Position numbers and translations under genes: made by a program. The notes under the pieces are model-generated. The model did not search any database. It saw only the letters and a program-made list of their open reading frames with translations, and was not told the DNA's origin. A DNA stretch of 64,000 bases from Platanthera guangdongensis (Eukaryota; Streptophyta; Magnoliopsida; Asparagales; Orchidaceae), in assembly GCA_039583875.1 (NCBI GenBank), contig CM077166.1, forward strand, positions 78,800,564 through 78,864,563. Reading direction: 5' to 3'. This document shows, in pieces, positions 41,470-56,963 of this stretch (positions are counted from its first letter, which is position 1; each line of letters starts with the position of its first letter).

Positions 41470-43555
41470 TGTAACACCCCCTATCTGTCGCATAGCATAT
41501 AGTAGTAGGTCCGGCTGGGGCCCAACGCCATATACCATAGATAGACCGGGTGGTTACTCAATGGAAACCATCCAACTAATATACAACGTCCTACACAGAG
41601 TCATTCTAGTGGAAGCAATTTTAATAGTTGCAAATAAAAGAACCCTGCTACTAGCATGAATGTCCACTACAAAGCCAACAGGAATGAAGTACAATACACA
41701 AGTACGATGGACTTAAGGCCTTACATCAGTTTACTCATATAACATGTTTTCCAAACCTCGGCATGCAGGCCGGTCACACATGAAAAAAGCTAGTAAACAC
41801 TCAATTTAGGCCTTTGAGGGTCGGCTCAGCAACTTGGGCTTTAGCCCGCTACTTAGCACTCGGCTCTGCAGCACCTGCAAACAACAATCCACCGAAAGGT
41901 GGCAAACAAAGGCAACGGTCAGCTATGCTGACCAAATTATAATGAACCCGCCCCCAACTCGGGGCGGCGATGCTCCTTCCCTGCACTTTGTTAACATAAT
42001 CCAGCAGTATAGTGTAATAACACAACAACATAGGCGTAGGCACTCACGACCACACAGCCCGTGCACTCATGGCACAATCTCGGTGAACTGGTCAATGTCA
42101 CGTCAGTTTAAGCCATAGACATCTCGGTCTCACCACCGCCACTTGGACGACCGATCTCATGAGCATTTAGTCTTTCCTGTATTGGTCACGTCATTTTAAG
42201 CCATAGACCGCCTAAGACCCTCCATTTATGCCAACGGCTCCAACCAAACGACATAGAGCGGGTACAGTTCCGCCTAACCCGTGCTCACATCGCAACGACA
42301 ATTTAAGCCATATGCGCGGGTCAAACATCCCCGAGTTCCAATCCGATTACATACTTTACACGACCTACTCATGTACAAGTTGGCTCCCAGGCCACCATGT
42401 TGGCAGAATCACGCATCTGCCCAGTTTTCCCGGTGCACATTGGAGTTAATCCCCAAGGCTCCGTGTTGCAATCTACCGCATAAAAAACCGGAAAAACCCA
42501 CATTCGCGCGGAGTCTTCTCCGGCCATTCATGCAATGCAACATCACCGATCCAGACCAACTTGTCCAGGTAGGCTTCACACATCATGCTTATATCCGTTC
42601 TCGATTACGGACTCTACATGTACACAACCGGGACTATTCATGTCTACCCGAAGGAATGCCTCAACTCACCGCAAACTCGCGAGAGCGGGCTTCCTATGCA
42701 AAGGAAAAGAGAGCTTCACAAGCTCAAGTAGAGAATAGTTACCCTAGCATTTTTCCTTGGCACCATGGAAATGTATGCGGATGGAAAGCACCACAATCTC
42801 CTTGCCTCCGTAGATCGGAAGTCGGCTCGCGATTTGGAGCTCTGAAACTCCGCCGGTAACAGGATCTAGCCTCCTTTCTTCTTCCTTACTCTCTCTTCTC
42901 TCTAGACTTTTAGAAAGAGACTAAGTGAAAGAAGCGAGGGATTTGAAACCCTATTCCCAGGTATATCCTAGTATGAACAACCCCCAGTCATCTAATCCCA
43001 AAATAAGGAAACGAACGGCCACGATCCGTAGATGAAATTCAAAACCTGGGCCGAACACGGCCTGTGACACGCCCGTGTCCAGGGCCGTGTCCCCCATTCG
43101 CCGTCGAAACCGACGCGTCCCAAAATTCACACGGCCACCCGACACGCCCGTGTTCGACCTGACACGCCCGTGTCATGCAGTACACGCCCGTGTTCCCGGG
43201 CTTGTTCCTCCATCAACATAGGACCAACACCAACCCGAGACTTACACGGGTCTTGGACACGCTCGTGTCCTATTTGACATGCCCGTGTCATACCCGAACA
43301 CGCCTGGGCTCCAGGCTGTGTTCACTGTCTCGATAATTCGTCTCCACAATTCGTCGACCACCTGACACGGCCTTGGACACCCCCGTGTCCTAGGCTGTGT
43401 TCCGTGTCTCGACACTTCATCGAACAAAATCGTCGACTTCCCTGGCAGATCATCGACATGAGCTCGACACGCCCTGGGACAAGCCCATATCTCAGGCCGT
43501 GTTCGCTGCTCGACGATCGTCGACTCCAAAATTCGTCGACCTCTCGGCCAAATCG
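41470..43555 (-). repeat. 3' LTR of Tekay-G, larger part
   Basis: It runs from TGTAACACCCCC at 41470 to the copia-D insertion and resumes at 49786. It matches 54760-56830. The part 43060-43550 is rich in GACACGCCCGTGTC and contains the perfect palindrome TCGACGATCGTCGA (43510-43523). Frames inside are incidental. Confidence 0.92.
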
Positions 43556-45504
43556 TGTTAAAAATCAACAAACCGCAGACGCCCCCTTGGATACCCTGCT
43601 GAAAACTCAACAAACCGAAGGAGAATACGCCCACTTATATGTTGAAAGTTTTCCCGGATCGTGGAGTTAACAGTGGTTATCTCAACAAAGCAGTAACAAC
43701 CAGCAACACATGCAGCACAAGCTTCTTTATTGATCAAGAGCAAACTTCTTTACAAGGCGAGACAAACATGGCGAGACATGCTTCACCAAAAACCAACACC
43801 GGGAGAGCAGAGACAGTTACAAAGACAAGAACAAAAAACAAGCCGCGCGGACTCAAACAATCAAGCCGCCGACCTACTGCTGTGGAGTCCGCTCAGTCCG
43901 CCAGGTCGCCAGACCGCAACCCAAGCCGCGCGGACTCACCCTTACTCCAATGCTTAGCTCTGGACTCACCCTTACTCCAATGCTTAGCTCTGGACTCACC
44001 CTTACTCCAATGCTTAGCTCTTCACCGCCGGTCTGCACGCCGCCAGACCGCACAAGCTGCGCCACCGAATGGAACAGTCCGCCAGAAACCGGCGACTTCC
44101 TGAACTCCGAACCAAGTCGCCAAAGAGAAGACCGCCTGGCCGCTATCCGCGACCTGCTGTTTACCGCCTGTTGCTTAACCGCAGAGTCCGCACTGTCCCT
44201 GACCGCAATCAGAGCCAAGTCCTGGCTTTCCAGCGCTATCCGCACAACCTGCACAGCACAACCGGGTCAACTCTCTATCCGCGCGGACACAAAGTCCAGG
44301 CCGCAGCAACTTACGCGAGCTCAAAAACTGTTCACTTACTTCGGTCTAGGTTCCCCCATTTCCTGATTTGACATGGGTCCTATTTATAGGCACGACGATG
44401 AGTATGGTCACCGCCCTTCCCGATAGAATCACCGCCACAACCCGCAGCTAGAACATAGTGTGTCCGCCAGCCCGCGGACACACAATCCAGTCCGCCGCTC
44501 CTGTGCAGATAGCCAGTCCGCTCCAGCTTCTCCAAGGCCGGACTCCAATATCCAGCCCGCCTTGCCGCCAGAGACCAAGCCAGGACCACCACAGCCGGAC
44601 TCCACAAAAGCCGTGTCCGCCAATCTGCGGACAAGGCATCAGCCCGCAAACCCCGAGCCCGCAGCCACGCCATCAAGGCACCTGCCGGACTCAGCGGACA
44701 CCCGGCTTTCGTCTGCATCTCCCAAGTCCATTACCTCAACACCAAGGCACCTCCGGACTTAGCGGACACGCCAATCCAGTCCGCTAACAGCAGACCCCAG
44801 TCCGCGTATACAGCGAACTCCAGTCCGCTTCCCTGAGTCCATAACCTCATCACAAGGCTCAACCGGACTCAGCGGACTCTGGCTCCAGTCCGCACGCTCC
44901 TGCACAAGCAATTCTCCAGTCCGCATATCTCCAAGCTAGCACACAAGGCAACAGCACTTCTACTAAGCTTGGCGGACTGAGAAACCAGCCCGCGCTCCAC
45001 TGCGCGATCTCCCCGGACTGAGCCATCCTGGACTTGGTTCAATTCCCACCAAGTCCAGCCCACTGGCCGCAAGGGCCAGTCCGCACTTACAGGCGGGCAC
45101 TGGATCTAGCCCGCCATACCGGGCGACCTCCAGTTCCTGTCCGCGCTGACCGGCGGTCTCCACGGCTTTCACTTGCCGCTTCACTAGAGCAAGACCAAGG
45201 CATCTGCCAAACCGGTCTGCCGAGCTCCAGTTCTTCAGTCCGCTTCAAGCCGGACTCCGCGGATAACATTCCTATCCGCCTGGTTACTTCCTGGGAGTAA
45301 ACCGCCTGCTGAGCATACACTGGCCTGTCAGACCGCCGCTGTAGTCCGCGCCGTCCGCGCGAACAGACCGCCCAGGCCGCCACAGAGCAAACCGCCTGCA
45401 ACATCCCTGCCGACCTAGCAGTCCGCCAACCCAGTCCGCGTAGTCCGCGCGGATAGGTTTCCCAAGCCTTCCATTCACCCACTTTCACTTCACAGAATTC
45501 AACA
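43556..45504 (-). repeat. 3' LTR of copia-D (1949 bp)
   Basis: The minus strand runs from TGTTGAATTCTGTG to GATTTTTAACA. It is GC-rich with many AGTCCGC and CCGCGCGG motifs and has a 30-bp triplicate at 43932-44021. The end of the copia-D ORF lies in it (45504-45087). Other frames in it are incidental. Confidence 0.95.
43932..44021. repeat. 30-bp tandem triplicate in the copia-D LTR
   Basis: Three exact units beginning GGACTCACCCTTACTCCAAT at 43932, 43962 and 43992. The same triplicate is in the other LTR at 48213-48302. Confidence 0.95.
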
Positions 45505-47750
45505 CTCCCCCTTGAAGTGAGAAGTGGTGAATAACTCCAGCAGCTCCCGTAACCTTGCACCTGGTCCTTCCGATAGCATCTACGAAGAGATGTCCAAGAC
45601 ATAGTCCTCGCCCCGCATATCATGGACCATGAGGGAGCCCTCCAGCATCTCCCAAAAGGAGCCATGCTTCCCTCTGCCTTCTTCAGCTTCAACCTCCACT
45701 CATGCATCACAGGAGTATCACCAACTTCCTTGGACCCAGAAGCCCAAGCCTCGTTGCCTCTGAGAGAAGTCACCTCATCAGACTTGGTGTCAACCACCTC
45801 CTTGATTCTAGTGGGGTCATCACAGCCAGAAGTCCCTTGCTCGACCTGAGGGCTAACAAGGAAACACGGGACCAAGTCCACCGTGTTCCCTTCGCTATAT
45901 CGAGCTGGTGGCTTACTGATCCTCTTCGATCTCCGAAGAACCTGATCATGGCTAACCACCTCCGCTGCTTTTGAACCAGCTCCGTTCCCGGGCAAACCCG
46001 GAACAATGCTCCCTTTGTTCCCTGAACAAGACGCCTCCTTACTGGAACCAAGAGCACCTGGAGCAACGCTCCCCCTGCTACCTGAACCAGAAGACTCCCC
46101 TCTTGAACATGAACTGCCTGGAACATCGCTCCCCTTGCTTCCTGAACAGGAAGCCTCCGCCTTTGAGCCAGAAGGTCCTGGAGCATCGCTCCCCCTTCTT
46201 CCCGACTCTGACGCCTTTGCCCCGGAGCTAGAACAACCTGGAGCACCTGGTGACTCAGGCAACTCCACTTCCTTAGCAGCAGCCTCCTTCAGCCCACCAT
46301 CTGACCTGCTTAACTCTAGCTCCACATAAGAGCTACCCCAATACGGCGTCAACTCATCAAAAACAATGTCTCTCGACACTATGAGTTTCTTTGTCGCAGG
46401 ATCCATACACCTCCATCTTCTTCTCTGCTCATCATACCCTACAAAGACTAGCTTTGTTTTGAGAGCACCCGGAGAGTGTAAATAGCAGGTAGATCCAAAC
46501 ACCCGAAGGTGCTTCACTGAGGGCTTCACTCCGAACATTAGCTCATAAGGAGTCTTTACTATGATCGGAATAAGAGGCATCCGGTTGATGACATGAGTAG
46601 CACAAGCTATTCCCTCCGCCCAAAGAGCCTTCGGAACGCCTTTACTCCGAAGCCAACACTTGCAGGTCTCCGTTAACCAACGGATCATCCGAGCTGCAAC
46701 ACTACCCTGTTGTGAAGTATGTCCACAAGAAGGCTCCATCCGGATCCCTTGCTTCCTGCAAAAGCGTGAGAACTCGGTTGAGGCAAACTCACCACCGAAA
46801 CTTGTCCTCAACACCTTGATCCTCCGGCCAAGCTGGCCTTCGACAAGCTTCTTGAACTCCACAAACAAGCGTATCATGCTGGACTTCGTCTTCATAAAGT
46901 ATACCCAAGTATACCCAGAATAGTCATCAACCAATATCAGCATGAACCTGCTGCCTCCAAGACTGGCCGTGACGGTCGGTCCCACCAGAGCACAATGGAC
47001 AACCGCCAATGGTGCTTTACTCCTGGATTGTGCTTTGTCGACCATGAAGCGATAGGCTCCACTTTCCTGACATTCCGCACACCCCCGACCATCGCCATAG
47101 GATGACAATCTAGGCAAGCCTCTTACGAGTCTTCTTTCCGCCATTGCTTTCAGCTTGTCCATCCCTACATGCCCCAGTCTTTCATGCCAGATAGCAGCAC
47201 TATCCTTGGCATCCAGCCGATCAGATCCAGAACTAGTTGAAGTCCCAACTACGTTCTTCTCCTTCCTCCCTACCTGAGCAACGTTCGCCGAGAGCAAGGT
47301 AACCTTGCACTCCTTCCGAAGATGACCTTGCTGCTTGCATTTATAGCACCGTGGTCCTTCCTTCCTCTTCCTATCACGCCTAGGAGAAACACTCCTTTCT
47401 TCCTGATATGAAGTAGAGGGACCATCATCAGCAGCAACCTCCTTCACCTTCTTCCTGAACAACCCATCAAGGGAAGTCCAGACCTCCGCAGCTGACCGAC
47501 ATCCACTGATGTGGTCCAAGAGCTCCGATGAGATCACCTGCCTGAGAATAGACTCCGCTTTCGCATTTGCCTCCTTCCAAGCTCTCATCGCCTCAGCATT
47601 ACCAGCAGTATCCTCTTGTCTTCCTGCTCCGCATACAACCTCCCAAAGGTCCTCGCCAAGAAGAAAGCTCTTCATACAGGACTTCCACCGTTCACAGTTC
47701 GCCTCTGTAAGAAGATCAATACCAAGACAACTTGCATCCTCCACTGCCAT
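45087..47750 (-). CDS. Copia-D ORF: short gag, zinc knuckle and catalytically dead integrase
   Basis: An open frame of 887 codons. ATG at 47750 is chosen because the longer frame upstream runs through the primer site into the LTR. Residues about 1-100 are the start of a copia gag domain (RWKSCMKSFLLGEDLWEVV); its second half is missing. A CCHC knuckle follows (CYKCKQQGHLRKEC, 135-148). No protease motif exists before the zinc-binding region (WHERLGH at 188, CAEC at 224). The integrase core (about 245-400) is well preserved in fold motifs, but the three catalytic acids are replaced: VHCALVGP (Ala254), RTSFGGEF (Ser317) and QQGSVAAR (Ala353). Residues 500-600 are degenerate Gly/Ser repeats. No reverse transcriptase follows; residues from about 749 lie in the LTR. 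It may supply particle or nucleic-acid-binding function, with enzymes from elsewhere. Confidence 0.85.
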   Translation of the reverse strand: MAVEDASCLGIDLLTEANCERWKSCMKSFLLGEDLWEVVCGAGRQEDTAGNAEAMRAWKEANAKAESILRQVISSELLDHISGCRSAAEVWTSLDGLFRKKVKEVAADDGPSTSYQEERSVSPRRDRKRKEGPRCYKCKQQGHLRKECKVTLLSANVAQVGRKEKNVVGTSTSSGSDRLDAKDSAAIWHERLGHVGMDKLKAMAERRLVRGLPRLSSYGDGRGCAECQESGAYRFMVDKAQSRSKAPLAVVHCALVGPTVTASLGGSRFMLILVDDYSGYTWVYFMKTKSSMIRLFVEFKKLVEGQLGRRIKVLRTSFGGEFASTEFSRFCRKQGIRMEPSCGHTSQQGSVAARMIRWLTETCKCWLRSKGVPKALWAEGIACATHVINRMPLIPIIVKTPYELMFGVKPSVKHLRVFGSTCYLHSPGALKTKLVFVGYDEQRRRWRCMDPATKKLIVSRDIVFDELTPYWGSSYVELELSRSDGGLKEAAAKEVELPESPGAPGCSSSGAKASESGRRGSDAPGPSGSKAEASCSGSKGSDVPGSSCSRGESSGSGSRGSVAPGALGSSKEASCSGNKGSIVPGLPGNGAGSKAAEVVSHDQVLRRSKRISKPPARYSEGNTVDLVPCFLVSPQVEQGTSGCDDPTRIKEVVDTKSDEVTSLRGNEAWASGSKEVGDTPVMHEWRLKLKKAEGSMAPFGRCWRAPSWSMICGARTMSWTSLRRCYRKDQVQGYGSCWSYSPLLTSRGSVEFCEVKVGEWKAWETYPRGLRGLGWRTARSAGMLQAVCSVAAWAVCSRGRRGLQRRSDRPVYAQQAVYSQEVTRRIGMLSAESGLKRTEELELGRPVWQMPWSCSSEAASESRGDRRSARTGTGGRPVWRARSSARL
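45505..45513 (-). other. Polypurine tract of copia-D
   Basis: The minus strand reads AAGGGGGAG directly before the LTR start TGTTGAATTC. Confidence 0.88.
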
Positions 47751-47820
47751 GGTTCTACCACTGGTTTCCTCGACAGACGAGCAACTACTTCCATTGAGCA
47801 CTGCTTGACCACTCCAACAA

Positions 47821-47836
47821 CCTGGCTCTGATACCA
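47821..47836 (-). other. Primer-binding site of copia-D, tRNA-Met type
   Basis: The minus strand reads TGGTATCAGAGCCAGG directly after the LTR end AACA. The first 12 bases are the perfect complement of initiator tRNA-Met. Confidence 0.95.
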
Positions 47837-49785
47837 TGTTAAAAATCAACAAACCGCAGACGCCCCCTTGGATACCCTGCTGAAAACTCAACAAACCGAA
47901 GGAGAATACGCCCACTTATATGTTGAAAGTTTTCCCGGATCGTGGAGTTAACAGTGGTTATCTCAACAAAGCAGTAACAACCAGCAACACATGCAGCACA
48001 AGCTTCTTTATTGATCAAGAGCAAACTTCTTTACAAGGCGAGACAAACATGGCGAGACATGCTTCACCAAAAACCAACACCGGGAGAGCAGAGACAGTTA
48101 CAAAGACAAGAACAAAAAACAAGCCGCGCGGACTCAAACAATCAAGCCGCCGACCTACTGCTGTGGAGTCCGCTCAGTCCGCCAGGTCGCCAGACCGCAA
48201 CCCAAGCCGCGCGGACTCACCCTTACTCCAATGCTTAGCTCTGGACTCACCCTTACTCCAATGCTTAGCTCTGGACTCACCCTTACTCCAATGCTTAGCT
48301 CTTCACCGCCGGTCTGCACGCCGCCAGACCGCACAAGCTGCGCCACCGAATGGAACAGTCCGCCAGAAACCGGCGACTTCCTGAACTCCGAACCAAGTCG
48401 CCAAAGAGAAGACCGCCTGGCCGCTATCCGCGACCTGCTGTTTACCGCCTGTTGCTTAACCGCAGAGTCCGCACTGTCCCTGACCGCAATCAGAGCCAAG
48501 TCCTGGCTTTCCAGCGCTATCCGCACAACCTGCACAGCACAACCGGGTCAACTCTCTATCCGCGCGGACACAAAGTCCAGGCCGCAGCAACTTACGCGAG
48601 CTCAAAAACTGTTCACTTACTTCGGTCTAGGTTCCCCCATTTCCTGATTTGACATGGGTCCTATTTATAGGCACGACGATGAGTATGGTCACCGCCCTTC
48701 CCGATAGAATCACCGCCACAACCCGCAGCTAGAACATAGTGTGTCCGCCAGCCCGCGGACACACAATCCAGTCCGCCGCTCCTGTGCAGATAGCCAGTCC
48801 GCTCCAGCTTCTCCAAGGCCGGACTCCAATATCCAGCCCGCCTTGCCGCCAGAGACCAAGCCAGGACCACCACAGCCGGACTCCACAAAAGCCGTGTCCG
48901 CCAATCTGCGGACAAGGCATCAGCCCGCAAACCCCGAGCCCGCAGCCACGCCATCAAGGCACCTGCCGGACTCAGCGGACACCCGGCTTTCGTCCGCATC
49001 TCCCAAGTCCATTACCTCAACACCAAGGCACCTCCGGACTTAGCGGACACGCCAATCCAGTCCGCTAACAGCAGACCCCAGTCCGCGTATACAGCGAACT
49101 CCAGTCCGCTTCCCTGAGTCCATAACCTCATCACAAGGCTCAACCGGACTCAGCGGACTCTGGCTCCAGTCTGCACGCTCCTGCACAAGCAATTCTCCAG
49201 TCCGCATATCTCCAAGCTAGCACACAAGGCAACAGCACTTCTACTAAGCTTGGCGAACTGAGAAACCAGCCCGCGCTCCACTGCGCGATCTCCCCGGACT
49301 GAGCCATCCTGGACTTGGTTCAATTCCCACCAAGTCCAGCCCACTGGCCGCAAGGGCCAGTCCGCACTTACAGGCGGACACTGGATCTAGCCCGCCATAC
49401 CGGGCGACCTCCAGTTCCTGTCCGCGCTGACCGGCGGTCTCCACGGCTTTCACTTGCCGCTTCACTAGAGCAAGACCAAGGCATCTGCCAAACCGGTCTG
49501 CCGAGCTCCAGTTCTTCAGTCCGCTTCAAGCCGGACTCCGCGGATAACATTCCTATCCGCCTGGTTACTTCCTGGGAGTAAACTGCCTGCTGAGCATACA
49601 CTGGCCTGTCAGACCGCCGCTGCAGTCCGCGCCGTCCGCGCGAACAGACCGCCCAGGCCGCCACAGAGCAAACCGCCTGCAACATCCCTGCCGACCTAGC
49701 AGTCCGCCAACCCAGTCCGCGTAGTCCGCGCGGATAGGTTTCCCAAGCCTTCCATTCACCCACTTTCACTTCACAGAATTCAACA
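47837..49785 (-). repeat. 5' LTR of copia-D (1949 bp)
   Basis: Same length as the 3' LTR and nearly identical. Differences seen: 48998, 49168, 49254, 49371, 49581 and 49620 region, all C/T or G/A. Confidence 0.95.
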
Positions 49786-49909
49786 AATCGTCGACCCAAA
49801 CACGACATGCCCTGGGACACGACCGTGTCCCAGGCCATGTGCCCCCTGCCAAATTCCAAACTTGGCTCAAAATGCGTCCCGTCGCTCTTTTGAGTTTCGG
49901 GGCGTTACA
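49786..49909 (-). repeat. 3' LTR of Tekay-G, remaining part
   Basis: It continues the LTR after the copia-D target duplication and ends GGGGCGTTACA on the plus strand, which is the LTR start on the minus strand. Confidence 0.92.
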
Positions 49910-49989: not shown

Positions 49990-51517
49990 AAACAACTCCG
50001 GGTACTCCTCAAGCATGGTCTGCTCTCGCTCCCAATAGAGTTATTCCCGACCGCAATTGTCCCAACGGACCTTGACCATCCTGATCTCTTTGTTGCGTAG
50101 CCGCTTTACTTCCAAGTCCTCAATTCGAACGGGCTTGACCTTCGTTGTCAACCTATTCTTGACCGGCACTTGATCCACCGCGATCACATGCGAAGGCTCT
50201 TGCACCGCCTTCCGTAGCACCGATATATGGAATACATCATGTAGACCACTAAGCTCCACTGATAGCTTCAAACGATAAGCTGCTTCACCAATCCGCTCCA
50301 GAACCTCAAACGGTCCAAGGTACCTCGGGCTTAGCTTCTTCAAGTACCGCACCCGCGAGACTCCCTTAAACGGCTTGATCTTCAAGTACACCCAGTCGCC
50401 AACAGCGAACTCCACATTCCTGTGCTTGGTGTTATAGTACTTAGCCTGGAGGTCTTGAGCGATTAGCAACCTCTCCCGAATGGTTCGTACCAAAGAAGTA
50501 GAATCTTCCACCTCTTGTCGCTTGTACAACTTTGACTCGCTCGTTTCCAACCAAGACAACGACGTGCGACATCTTCTACCATAAAGTGCCTCAAAGGGTG
50601 CCATTTGTATGCTTGCCTGGTAGCTATTGTTGTACGCGAACTCCACCAAGTATAGGTGGTCTTCCCACTACTTCCCAAAGTCCAGGACACACATGCGAAG
50701 CATGTCCTCCATTGTCCTATTGAAAGGCTGTGTTGAAACTCAGCTTTGTTCCCAACATCTGCTGCACCAGCCTCCAATCATTGGATGTGAACCGCCCATC
50801 TCGATCACTCACGATGTTCCTGGGCACACCATGAAGCCGTACTATGTTATCCACATATAACTTTGTCAATTTCTCAACCGGATCATCCTTCCTATGCGGA
50901 ATGAAGTGCGACACCTTCGTCAGGCGATCTACGACCACCCAAATGGCGTCAATTCCCTTCTGTGACCTCAGTAACCCGTGCACAAAGTCCATAGTAATGT
51001 CGTCGAACTTCCACTCCGAAATAGGCAAGGACTTCAAGAATCCTCCCGGCTTTTGGCACTCTGCCTTCACCAAGGCGCATGTCTGACACTTCACCACGTA
51101 TAGTGCCACATCCTTCTTCAGTCCTGGTCACCAGAACAATTTCTTCACATCAAGGAACATCTTCGTGCTCCCCGGGTGAATCGTGTACTTGGTATGATGT
51201 GCCTTGTACAACAATTCCACCCGCAAAGTGCCCACATTTGGGACGCACAGATGACCGTCTTTCCAAAGTAATCCGTCCACAACCTCATATTGGGAATTTG
51301 ACCCATCCGGAGCCTCTATCATGAGCTGCTTCATGCTGATATCCACATCCAAAGACTGCCAAATCCAATCAGCCAGATCATACTGAACTTCCATCCAGTT
51401 CAATAGCGCTTCAGCACTCGTCTGCTTGTCTATGCAAGAGATCTCCAACGCCTCCAACTCCCGAACCAACCCCTCCTCATGGACCGACAGCCAATTGTCT
51501 TGAGCTGGGGCCGGCAA
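49990..51517 (-). pseudogene. pol: Tekay-G integrase with chromodomain-like tail
   Basis: Pieces in two phases. 51517-50717 has the zinc-binding region (HHTKYTIHPGSTKMF, CQTCALVKAECQ), the first catalytic aspartate (DDITMDFVHGL), VVVDRLTKVSHFIP and the second aspartate (NIVSDRDGRFTS). A stop lies at 51128. Just after the NTAFQ motif the sequence jumps to RTMEDMLR, so a deletion of about 25-30 bases removes the segment that holds the third catalytic residue. 50649-50041 has YNNSYQASIQMAPFEALYGR, GDWVYLKIKPFKGV, GPFEVLERIGEAAYRL, HDVFHISVLRK and the tail MVKVRWDNCGRE, then a stop with the tail continuing past it. Confidence 0.85.
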
Positions 51518-51518
51518 C

Positions 51519-53347
51519 TCAACGCGTCTGCAATCGCATTGCCTTTACCAGGCACTTAATGAATGTGTACTCCCCCAGGAACTCCATCCATCTACGCTGC
51601 CACATGTCCTGATCTTTTTGATCCAACAAAAATTTCAGGCTCTTATGGTCGGTATAGATATCGACCCTTACCCCATACAAGTAGTGCCTCCACAGCTTCA
51701 AGGAAAAAATCACGGCCTCTAACTCCAAGTCATGGACCGGATAATTCCTCTCGTGCACTTTCAACTGTCTCGAGCCATACGCTATACGCTTCCATGCTGC
51801 AGTAGCACGTAACCCAAACCACTGCCCGAAGCATCGCTGTAGATTTCAAAGCCTTCGGTCCCACTCGGCAAACTCAGCACAGGCACCGTGGTCAACCCAC
51901 ACTTCAACTCCTCAAAAGCTTGTGCGCACTTTGGCGTCCAAACAAACTTCTGCTCCTTCCTCGTCAAAGTAGTGAGAGGTAACGTTATCCGCGAGAAGTT
52001 CTACACGAAGCGCCTGTAATAGCCGGCAAGCCCCAGAAAACTCCGGACTTCCGCAACCGTAGAAAGCACAGGCCACTCTCGTATCGCAACAATCTTTGTT
52101 GGATCCACCGCAATCCCCTCTCCACTCACTATATGACCGAGAAACACCACTGAGGACAAACAAAACTCGCATTTCGAGAACTTGGCGTACAATTGATTCC
52201 TCCTCAGTGTCTCCAAAACCAAGTGAAGATGCTTGAAGTGATCTTCCTCACTCTGCGAGTACACCAAAATGTCGTCGAAGAAGACGATCACAAAATGGTC
52301 CAAGTACTCCCTGAAAGTCCCGTTCATCAAATCCATGAACACTGACGGCACATTCGTCAGCCCAAATGACATGACCGTAAACTCGTAATGTCTGTATCTC
52401 GTACTGAACGATATTTTAGGGATATCACTCTCCCTTATTCTCAACTGATAGTTACCGGACTTAAGATCCAACTTAGAGTACACCGTCGACCCGACTAACT
52501 GATAAAATAGACCATCGTTCCTTGGGATCGGGTACTTGTTCTTTTTCGTTAGCTTGTTCAGCTCCCGATAATCAATACAGAGTCTCAAGCTCTCGTCCTT
52601 CTTCTTAACAAAGAGGACCGGTGCGCTCCAAGGCGACGAACTCGGACGCATATCACCTTGCTCCAAAAACTCTTGCAGTTGAACTTTCAGTTCCGCCATT
52701 TCCTTAGGCGCTAGCCGATACGGAGAGCATCACACAGGTTTAGCACCTGACACTATCTCAATTGTGAAATCTATCTTTCGTTGAGGCGGGGCTCCAGGAA
52801 GATCGGCAGGGAACACATCAGGGTACTCCGATACGACTGAAATACTATCCAATGTAGGTTTAGTCTTTGCAACCTCCACTAGTGTAAAGAACAGCTCTAC
52901 ACCAGCACGAATAACCTTCACCACCTTAAGAGCAGACATCAACCTCTTGCTCGACCCTTTCAAGCGTGTAAAAGTCATCTCACAACCTGTTCCCAACTTG
53001 ACTTCCTTGCGACCGCAATCGATATGAGCTTGCTGCTCCGAGAGCCAGTCCATGCCAAATATTACGTCGAACTCCACCAGCGGCAGTAACGACGCTAGCA
53101 AATGGAACTCCTGACTCCCAATACGAATCTGAACGGCACAGATTCTCTCCATGCGCATCGAACACCCATTCGATAACAACACATCCAGTTTGTCCTTCGC
53201 CATCGAAGAAGGTACTCCGATGCGCGATATGAATTCTTCGGACAAAAAGGTGTGCGAAACTCCCGTACCAAAGAGTGCTCTCGCCGGATTATCACAAATC
53301 AAAACAAATCCTAAACAAGCAGTGGTAAGGTAACACGCACATAACAA
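51519..53347 (-). pseudogene. pol: Tekay-G protease, reverse transcriptase and RNase H
   Basis: Protease (53347-52730) reads ALFGTGVSHTFLS where the family has a DSG triad, so the catalytic aspartate is glycine. FDVIFGMDWLSEQQAHIDC is conserved. After a TGA stop, reverse transcriptase (52699-52001) shows [59 protein letters not shown] and the catalytic [10 protein letters not shown]. RNase H is split by stops and a frameshift: [15 protein letters not shown] (near 51850) and [23 protein letters not shown] (51764-51519). Confidence 0.88.
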
Positions 53348-53540
53348 GTATGAAACAATTTCACTTGCTATAAATTTAAACCATACTTGTCACCACATCC
53401 GCTTGTTTAATGGCCTCCTGTTGGCCAAGATTATAAACTCTCAGTTGAGCCGGAGCATAATGGGATGCAGTTGACTCCACGGCCTTGCCCTTCACTTCGT
53501 AAGTTGCTCTCAGCTTCATTTCGGACTTGGGACGTCCGCT

Positions 53541-54540
53541 CTAGCAATTGCGGGCATAGTGCCTCGGCTTTCCACAAGTAAAACATGCACTTGGGGTCCA
53601 ACCCGTAGTCGCCCCAGAAGCAACGAAAGAAGGAGCTGGACCCGAAGTCCTAGCCTTCTTAAAGAACTTACGGTACGCAGACTTTGAGGTAGTCGGCACC
53701 TTGAACTCAGACTTCTTATCACCAAAGCTTTTCTTTGCCTGTACATTCTTCAAGTCCTTCTCCAAAGATCGGGCCGTGTTGACCAGGGTCAAGAAGCCCT
53801 GCGTCATCGGCCACGAGAGTAGTAGCCTCAAGTCATCCCTCAGACCTTCATAGAAACGGTTGGTCTTACGCTCCTCATCCGCAAACGTAGAGCTAGCATA
53901 CCGACCCAATCGAGTAAACTCATGGAGATACCCGTCCACACTACTCTCTCCTTGCATCAATTTCAGGAACTCATTCTCCAAAGCTATCCTTTGTGCCGAA
54001 GGGAGGTACCTTGACAAGAACAGTCTCTAGAACTCTTCCATCGAGATGTCTGTAAGTTTCCTTCCTCTCAAGAGATGCAGCTCCAAACCCTCCCACCACA
54101 GCCTAGCGTCTCCATCCAATAGGAACGTAGCTATAGTGGTCATCTGCCACTCCTCCGTTTTAGTAGCTGTCAGGACTCTCTTCACTCGGGAGATCCAGTC
54201 TTCAGCTGGAGATGGGGTTCCCAACCCCGAGAACACAGGAGGATTAAAGCTCATAATGTTCTTGAGCTGTCTTTCAGTTGCTTGCCTCAGCACCAAAGGC
54301 TCCACTACTACCTGCTCCACTCTTCTCGGTTCATCCCTTTGTAGCGGTACCTGCTACATCGTAGGAGCGGGCTGCTGCATTTGTCGTACAGGCTGCGCAT
54401 TGATCATGGCAAACACTGCTTCGGCAACTAGTCGTATGGTTTCAACCGAGAGAGGTGTTGTAGGAGCATCGTTTGGTACACTACTAGCCTTAGAAACTCG
54501 GCGTTTTGACGGCCCAACGCCGCTTCTGGTCACCTATAGT
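53541..54540 (-). pseudogene. gag: Tekay-G gag
   Basis: One frame with stops near 54358, 54027 and 53541. The gag domain reads FSGLGTPSPAEDWISRVKRV, LLDGDARLWWEGL and FLKLMQGESSVDGYLHEFTRLGRY. A CCHC knuckle follows (CFTCGKPRHYARNC). The likely start near 54540 is GTG in place of ATG. The stops at 54027 and 53541 are TAG. The region 53348-53540 links gag to protease and involves a change of phase. Confidence 0.82.
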
Positions 54541-54759: not shown

Positions 54760-56963
54760 TGTAACACCCCCTAATCGTCACATAGCATATAGCAGTAGGT
54801 CCGGCTGGGGCCTGACGTCATATACCACAGACAGACCAGGTGGTTACTCAATGGAAACCATCCAACTAACATACAACGTCCTACACAGAGTCATTCGAGC
54901 GGAAGCAATTTTAATAGTTGCAAATAAAAGAACCTCGCTACTAGCATGAATGTCCACTACAAAGCCAACATGAATGAAGTATAATAAACAAGTACGATGG
55001 CCTTAAGGCCTTACATTTGTTTACTCAAATAACATGTTTTCCAAACCTCGGCATGCAGGCCGGTCACACATTAAAAAAGCTAGTAAACACTCAATTTAGG
55101 CCTTCGAGGGCCGGCTCAGGAACTTGGGCTTTAGCCCGCTATTTATCACTCAGCTCCGCAACACCTACAAACAATAATCCACCGCACGGTGGCCAACAAA
55201 GGCAACGGTCAGCTATGCTGACCAAATTATAACGATCCCGGCCCCAACTCGGGGCGGCGATGCTCCTTTCCCGCACTTTGTTAGCATAATCCAGCAGTAT
55301 AGTGTAACAACACAACAACACAGGCGTATGCACTCATGCCCACACACCCCGTGCACTCAGGGCACATTCTCGGTGAACCGGTCAATGTCATGTCAGTTTA
55401 AGCCATAGACATCTCGGTCTCACCACCGCCACTTGGACGGCCGATCTCGTGAGCATTTAGTCTTTCCGACATTGGTCACGTCATTTTAAGCCATAAACTG
55501 CCTAAGACCCTCCGTCTATGCCAACGACTCCAACCGAACGATATAGAGCAGGTATGGTTCCACCTAACTCGTGCTCACATCGCAATGACAATTTAAGCTA
55601 TATGCACGGGTGAAACATTCCCGAGTCCCAATCCGATTACACACTTTACACGACACAATCATGTACAAGTTGGCTCCCAGGCCACCATGTTGGCAGAATC
55701 ACGCATCTGCCCAGTTTTCCGGGTTTACCTTGGAGTTAATCCCCAAGGCACCCTGTTGCAATCTACCGCGTAGAAAGCCAGAAAAACACACATTCGCGCG
55801 GATTCTTCTCCGACCATTCATGCAATACAACATCACTGATCCAGACCACTAGTCCCGGTAGTCTTCACACATTATGCCTATATCCATTCTCGATTACGGA
55901 CTCTATATGTACACAATGGGGACTATTCATGTCTACCCGAAGGAACGCCTCAACTCACCGCAAACTCGCGAGAGCGGGCTTCCTATGCAAAGGAAAAGAG
56001 AGCTTCACATGCTCAAGTAGAGAATCATTACCCTAGCATTTTTCCTTAGCATCATGGAAATGTATGCGGATGGAAAGCACCGCAATCTCCTTGCCTCCAT
56101 ATATCTGAAGTCGCCTCGCGATTTGGAGCTCTGAAACTCCGCCGGTAACCGGATCTAGCCTCCTTTCGTGTTCCTTGCTCTCCCTTCTCTCTAGACTTTT
56201 AGAAAGAGACTAAGTGAAAGAAGTGAGGGATTTGAAACCCTATTCCCTGGTATATCCTAGTAGTAACAACCCCTAGCCATTAGATCCCAAAATACGGAAA
56301 CGAACGGCCACGATCCATAGCTGAAATGCAAAACCTGGGTCGAACACGGCCTGTGACACGCCCGTGTCCAGGGCCGTGTCCCCCATTCGCTGTTGAAACC
56401 GACGCGTCCCGAAATTCACGCGGGCACCCGACACGCTCGTGTTCGACCTAACACGCCCGTTTTATACAGTACACGCCCGTATTCCCGGACGTGTTCCTCC
56501 ATCAACATAGGACCAACACCAACCTGAGACTCACACAGGTCTTCGACACGCCTGTATCCTATTTGACACGCTCGTGTCATACCCGAACACACCTGGGCTC
56601 CAGGCCATATTCACTGTCTCGACACTTCATCTCGACACTTCGTTAACCACCTGACACGGCCTTGGACACGCCCGTGTCCTAGGCCGTGTTCCGTGTCTCG
56701 ACACTTCGTCGAGCAAAATCGTCGACTTCCCTGGCAGATCATCGACACGAGCTCGACACTCCCTGGGACACGCCCGTGTCTCAAGCCGTGTTCGCTGCTC
56801 GACGATCGTCGAGTCCAAAATTCGTCTACCTCTCAGCCAAATCGTCGACCCAAACACGACACGCCCTGGTACACGCCCGTGTCCCAGGTCGTGTGCCTCC
56901 TGCCAAATTCCAAACTTGGCTCAAAACGCCTCTCGTTGCTCTTTTGAGTTTCGGGGCGTTACA
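54760..56963 (-). repeat. 5' LTR of Tekay-G (2204 bp)
   Basis: TGTAACACCCCC at 54760 to GGGGCGTTACA at 56963. Contains the CACGCCCGTG array (56340-56790) and the palindrome TCGACGATCGTCGA (56799-56812). No gene; frames inside are incidental. The spacer 54541-54739 between gag and primer site is the leader. Confidence 0.93.

Follow-up and report, generated by a model that had tools for sequence, protein, structure and literature searches.

A Ty1/copia retrotransposon family of Platanthera guangdongensis whose single open reading frame includes a catalytically dead integrase

Families of non-autonomous long terminal repeat (LTR) retrotransposons whose gag is open have been described before and have been read as gag suppliers. 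The element described here is a non-autonomous copia element of Platanthera guangdongensis, located in a stretch of 64,000 nucleotides (GenBank assembly GCA_039583875.1, contig CM077166.1, positions 78,800,564 to 78,864,563 of the forward strand), the whole of which is referred to as the window. It resembles TR-GAG (AT5TE33540 of ATCOPIA63) in being non-autonomous, with a single gag-first open reading frame (ORF) and most of pol absent. TR-GAG elements can transpose and encode gag only, whereas the element of the window combines half a gag with a full-length dead integrase (PMC8704663). With about 120 gag codons gone and integrase domains present, it falls outside the TR-GAG class. The wheat semi-autonomous elements RLG_Quinta and RLG_Sabrina are comparable in their abundance and in having a partner with the same LTR termini and primer site, and their ORF is described as thought to supply protein (PMC11302176, PMC9744471). 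They are Gypsy elements whose gag is accompanied by a DUF or a protease and which have no integrase, whereas the present element retains a dead one. Complete copia elements with a 1383-codon ORF in the same genome, and a Platanthera zijinensis polyprotein (P0002), carry the retained domains in the same order, and have the same polypurine tract (PPT) and LTR terminal motifs and nearly the same primer site. Unlike the element, they possess the catalytic Asp-Asp-Glu triad (D-D-E), a full gag, protease, reverse transcriptase (RT) and RNase H. Literature searches listed no paper recognisable as a description of a non-autonomous LTR family of plants whose integrase is dead, which is not proof of absence from print.

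The element belongs to a young, high-copy, non-autonomous Ty1/copia family, and the dead integrase site is present in all copies examined, either encoded or, where the frame is broken, still retained. Based on comparison of the sequences, we give a probability of roughly 55% to the reading that selection kept the frame of an integrase-like, non-catalytic protein after the loss of catalysis, its product being a nucleic-acid- and integrase-binding factor. If this is true, a family that lacks half of gag and all RT, and still keeps its frame through a dead integrase, would set apart, as an experiment of nature, what integrase does as a structural protein and what it does as an enzyme. The non-cutting role could then be tested in a plant element that offers hundreds of natural copies.

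An integrase without its catalytic residues

The 887-codon frame reported in the initial annotation, which was made from the sequence alone, was confirmed to be open. In 500 base shuffles of the ORF stretch, the longest stop-free run was 183 codons. The ORF and its domains are listed below.

45087..47750, minus strand: single ORF of 887 codons plus stop, ATG at 47750, last ~139 codons in the 3' LTR
47448..47711, minus strand: N-terminal half of copia gag, DUF4219 and gag_2 (profile 1-76 of 172), from Pfam and from alignment to P0002 and same-genome copies
47304..47351, minus strand: CCHC zinc knuckle (zf-CCHC 20.5 bits, cut-off 20.8)
47064..47243, minus strand: integrase N-terminal HHCC domain (gag_pre-integrs, Pfam), H189, H194, C224 and C227 kept
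46575..47030, minus strand: integrase core fold, residues 241-392 (limits set in this analysis), Ala254, Ser317 and Ala353 for D, D and E
46347..46535, minus strand: SH3-like C-terminal integrase domain (SH3_retrovirus, E 5.5e-19), 7 residues shorter than in P0002
45654..45854, minus strand: remnant, in-frame linker end and RT start (blastp block 150-699 to P0002 409-907)
45507..45650, minus strand: out-of-frame pol-end remnant after the RT-RNase H deletion (tblastn block 701-748, other frame of the complete copy L047)

The zinc knuckle residues C135, C138, G142 and H143 were invariant among the aligned sequences. The integrase core scored 23.6 bits against the Pfam profile rve, below the cut-off of 32.6. 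The core is predicted to keep the RNase H-like DDE integrase fold, by a structure model that depends in part on the homologs aligned with it. The D-D-E positions read A254 (GCT, 46991-46989), S317 (AGT, 46802-46800) and A353 (GCT, 46694-46692), with codons and coordinates exactly as first annotated. Of 33 homologs, 32 have D, D and E in the corresponding aligned columns and one is gapped at the second position, and the three residues also align with the Ty1 integrase. Judged by this A-S-A triad, the product of the window element is not an active DDE integrase.

Further copies were sought in the whole genome (4.2456 Gb, 274 contigs), the searches returning best matches only. A protein search, ranked by protein score, gave 51 scored matches, 45 of which were without a stop. 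In total 33 copies were compared: the window, 20 copies selected by protein score and 12 selected blind to the ORF. For the ORF-blind set the LTR end and leader were used as query, 40 of 2787 first-look candidates were scored, and 12 of these 40 were read; 27 others and the site of the window itself were not included. An acidic residue was found at no triad position in any of the 33 copies (one is gapped in the second codon). Codon 254 was GCT in 32 copies and GGT in one, and codon 353 was GCT in 32 and ACT in one, while codon 317 was AGT in 17, GGT in 15 and GG- in one. An exact-flank pattern blind to codon 353 itself matched 745 sites; among the 100 of these that were listed, the codon was GCT in 96, ACT in three and GCC in one, and none was acidic. 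The possibility of a single decayed copy was ruled out, as the loss of the triad is common to all copies examined. No copy that shares this ORF and also has full pol with an intact D-D-E, which the initial annotation had named as evidence against its reading, turned up among the best matches. At the second catalytic position, serine (17) and glycine (15) replacements coexist among the 33 copies.

Deletions and selection on the reading frame

P0002 was the best match in the protein database, with 62% identity over 70% of the query. Relative to it, the ORF lacks about 120 codons forming the second half of gag, 139 codons including the protease, seven codons of the SH3-like domain, and the whole stretch that begins just inside RT and stops close to the end of RNase H. 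It has 40 and 19 extra codons in the linker, and the remaining gaps up to codon 699 are of one or two codons each. Every insertion or deletion up to codon 699 preserves the reading frame. Past the RT-RNase H deletion, the end of pol is read out of frame (codons ~701-748) and the ORF then runs on into the 3' LTR (codons 749-887). A Pfam scan gave no match to protease, RT or RNase H in the ORF at E 0.001; as first annotated, and as seen from the deletions against P0002, these enzymes are not encoded, and a remnant of the RT start is left. The claim that gag and zinc knuckle were kept was correct for the knuckle and the N-terminal half of gag; the second half of gag (~120 codons) is missing. In the linker after the SH3-like domain, a degenerate repeat of ~60 bp was observed at 45996-46202, in a region 59 codons longer than in P0002.

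A role in gag supply, usual for TR-GAG and the wheat semi-autonomous elements, is unlikely because half of gag is deleted. Selection on gag only, an alternative raised in the initial annotation, is disfavoured because the ~550 codons that follow the knuckle, up to codon 699, would not have stayed in frame under it during what appears to have been a relaxed period.

Codon models were run on four integrase sequences at a time, with three choices of relatives. The ratio of nonsynonymous to synonymous substitution rates (dN/dS) on the element branch was 0.357, 0.349 and 0.292 for the three taxon sets, against backgrounds of 0.075, 0.080 and 0.119, and dN/dS = 1 was rejected on that branch in each (P 0.0014, 0.0009 and 1.4e-5). 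For the N-terminal part of gag the models gave 0.17. Lineage-specific amino-acid changes in the integrase numbered 42 in the element vs 13 in the complete family (P 0.0001, one outgroup pair), and four other outgroup sets gave counts from 38 v 5 to 52 v 18. On these comparisons the integrase is, over the long term, relaxed yet not neutral. Stronger constraint on the SH3-like domain than on the core was also considered. The codon models gave 0.16 vs 0.47 for HHCC and core together, but the protein relative-rate counts (11 v 4 against 18 v 8 for the core) disagree, and the difference is not claimed.

The main rival explanation is that the family moves by cis signals alone (LTR ends, primer site, PPT and packaging), while the ORF is idle and has stayed open through youth and an open founder. 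The roughly threefold faster evolution of the element integrase (42 v 13) agrees with this, as do stops or frameshifts in 8 of the 12 ORF-blind copies and recent nonsynonymous to synonymous (N:S) counts near the neutral expectation. In wheat, non-autonomous RLC_Angela subfamilies with wholly degenerate coding sequence are described (PMC9744471). An idle ORF would, however, have required a neutral phase of 0.4-0.5 substitutions per codon to account for the excess change, for which about five stops (4.7-5.9) and ten frameshifts (9.8-12.4) are expected in the 302 integrase codons alone, with shuffles supplying the stop rate and private mutations the frameshift rate. Neither kind of break is seen in these codons of the window. 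Further points against it are that the indels up to codon 699 all keep the frame, that the ORF-blind copies have no frame break in common, and that dN/dS = 1 was rejected for the whole branch. The idle ORF is weakened as an explanation and is considered less likely than selective retention of the frame.

Frame breaks were examined in the window and the 12 ORF-blind copies. Private to single copies were five stops and nine frameshifts beside 105 other substitutions, whereas no frame break was shared beside 58 shared substitutions (Fisher P 0.003, one private 3-bp deletion being left out).

Several observations weigh against selective retention of the frame. Shared N:S counts were 40:18 against a neutral expectation of 42.1:14.7 (synonymous P 0.18), and private counts were 72:33 against 76.8:28.9 (P 0.19), both in the ORF-blind comparison. 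A fully open internal frame was present in only 4 of the 12 ORF-blind copies, in one of them with the ATG changed to ATA. The 12 copies were picked by LTR likeness to the window, the window itself was selected for its open ORF, and repeated hot-spot mutation can aid the shared-versus-private test. For HHCC and core alone, the dN/dS of 0.47 differed only weakly from 1 (lnL difference 2.16). The element departs at 13 of 54 columns that are at least 90% conserved in the 33 homologs, including all three catalytic residues, but some homologs that keep D-D-E depart similarly often (14/58, 13/59 and 10/57), and 13/54 is not extreme in itself. Strong recent purifying selection, suggested by an excess of singleton synonymous changes in the copies chosen by protein score and also in the pooled 33, was rejected; the excess is attributed to the choice by protein score because it was not significant in the copies chosen by LTR and leader. 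The dN/dS check proposed in the initial annotation thus had a divided outcome, the long-term integrase value being below 1 and the recent ORF-blind N:S indistinguishable from neutral.

The lack of shared frame breaks while N:S is near neutral could also be due to an effect at the RNA level. A long frame ending near the 3' end might evade nonsense-mediated decay or aid co-translational packaging, with the amino acids mattering little, and the frame does extend into the 3' LTR, beyond the point where pol usually stops. The long-term dN/dS values well below 1, 0.17 for the N-terminal part of gag and 0.29-0.36 for the integrase, speak against this explanation, as they imply constraint on the amino-acid sequence along much of the branch. 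In addition AT2TE84980, a plant non-autonomous element without long ORFs, is reported to transpose (PMC8704663). An effect of the RNA alone is considered improbable.

In retroviral intasomes, the outer subunits of integrase have a structural role. The integrase of HIV-1 also binds RNA and tethers it to the capsid, a task distinct from integration (PMC13102720), and so exemplifies an integrase function apart from catalysis via RNA binding. It differs in being a retroviral enzyme with its active site intact, and any such role in copia is drawn by analogy. Because of these two precedents, an RNA- or complex-building role is reasonable. Under selective retention, the product would act without catalysis, and binding of RNA or cDNA, or formation of mixed integrase complexes, would fit best by analogy. 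The ORF no longer has protease, RT, RNase H or all of gag, while half of gag, the zinc knuckle and the dead integrase stayed in one frame, which would have been selectively kept once catalysis was gone. The product may help to package the element's own RNA, or may be a structural subunit beside the partner's integrase. More specifically, with catalysis lost in the whole family, the integrase could have turned into a dedicated structural protein that keeps its fold and, fused to the gag N-terminus and knuckle, packages RNA or builds mixed intasomes with the partner enzyme; this is possible but tentative. If so, the parasite would repay its partner in structure and not in gag. The non-enzymatic role first proposed for the integrase is in agreement with the family-wide dead site and the long-term dN/dS below 1, less so with the near-neutral recent N:S, and is put forward as an inference.

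Recent movement and a candidate mobiliser

The deleted structure was identical in all 12 ORF-blind copies. An exact 5-bp target-site duplication was found in 17 of the 20 whole copies that were fetched and two more were one base off; the 5' end of the last (L024) was not located. LTR-LTR identity was 98.9-99.95% across these 20 copies, which look like recent, independent, regular integrations. In copies taken by protein-score rank, the LTR was more variable between copies over its first ~1.5 kb than the ORF was, with indels. Same-orientation sites about 4.2 kb apart were observed at C1:110808034, 110812227 and 110816412 and at C1:49615191 and 49619402. This spacing equals one LTR plus one internal region and suggests, from the positions, LTR-sharing tandem chains formed by recombination.

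Proteins from elsewhere would carry out reverse transcription of the element RNA and insert the resulting cDNA. Most plausibly these would come from the complete copia elements, which share the LTR ends, the PPT and almost the primer site. The RT piece of P0002 gave 150 scored matches in the same genome, many in 1383-codon frames. In complete copies (L047, L051) D-D-E was present, and the PPT and LTR start were as in the element (CTTCAAGGGGGAGTGTTGAA, then TGTGAAGTG). The LTR/leader junction reads TTTAACA/TGGTATCAAAGCGAGG in the complete family vs TTTAACA/TGGTATCAGAGCCAGG in the element, and two positions differ in the 16 bases after the LTR. One complete copy had 786 bp of 3' LTR 99.87% identical to its own 5' LTR. 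LTR likeness between element and complete family was limited to scattered blocks, the largest of 320 columns at 69%, and integrase identity of the element to the complete family and P0002 was 66-67%. In wheat, the criteria for partner pairs include common LTR ends and a common primer site (PMC9744471, PMC11302176). The complete family is on sequence grounds a plausible mobiliser but not the parent, because the integrases are only 67% identical, and a closer one may exist. Such a closer autonomous family sharing the ORF was not found among the best matches to P0002 RT and P0006 protease-integrase queries. The complete family is a candidate for the autonomous partner sought by the initial annotation: it shares the LTR ends and has D-D-E, protease, RT and RNase H, and its primer site is nearly the same.

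Truncated Gag is known to poison Ty1 particles. The gag N-terminal half, knuckle and integrase domains could likewise co-assemble yet not function, so that truncated gag with a dead integrase would limit the family itself or a competitor by poisoning the particles of the complete family. Against this stand the dependence of the family on a partner and its great abundance, and interference of this kind is considered very unlikely.

Ends and genomic position of the element

The element is a non-autonomous Ty1/copia LTR retrotransposon. TG...CA LTR ends, primer site, PPT and a 5-bp target-site duplication were present, and the domains followed the copia order of gag_2, gag_pre-integrs and SH3_retrovirus and then the RT-start remnant, with integrase before RT.

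43556..49785, minus strand: copia element, internal part of ~2.3 kb between two LTRs
43556..45504, minus strand: 3' LTR, TGTTGAATTC...TTTTTAACA (self-comparison, 99.7% to the 5' LTR)
47837..49785, minus strand: 5' LTR (self-comparison)
43551..43555, no strand: target-site duplication CGATT (element strand), 3' side, from the flank letters
49786..49790, no strand: target-site duplication CGATT (element strand), 5' side, from the flank letters
45505..45513, minus strand: PPT AAGGGGGAG, from the sequence; the same tract precedes the LTR in the complete family
47825..47836, minus strand: primer-binding site TGGTATCAGAGC, from the sequence, directly after the 5' LTR

The primer-binding site is presumably of the initiator-Met tRNA type. 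A base-by-base comparison of the LTR pair gave 6 differences in 1949 positions, all transitions, in line with the roughly six first counted. Each copia LTR contains head-to-tail repeats of a 30-bp unit, GGACTCACCCTTACTCCAATGCTTAGCTCT, at 43932-44051 and 48213-48332. The element is inserted into an LTR of a gypsy element that is older, and the LTR pieces of this gypsy element (41470-43555 with 49786-49909, and 54760-56963) are 91-92% identical. Fragments of gypsy pol lie from ~50041 to 54026 on the minus strand.

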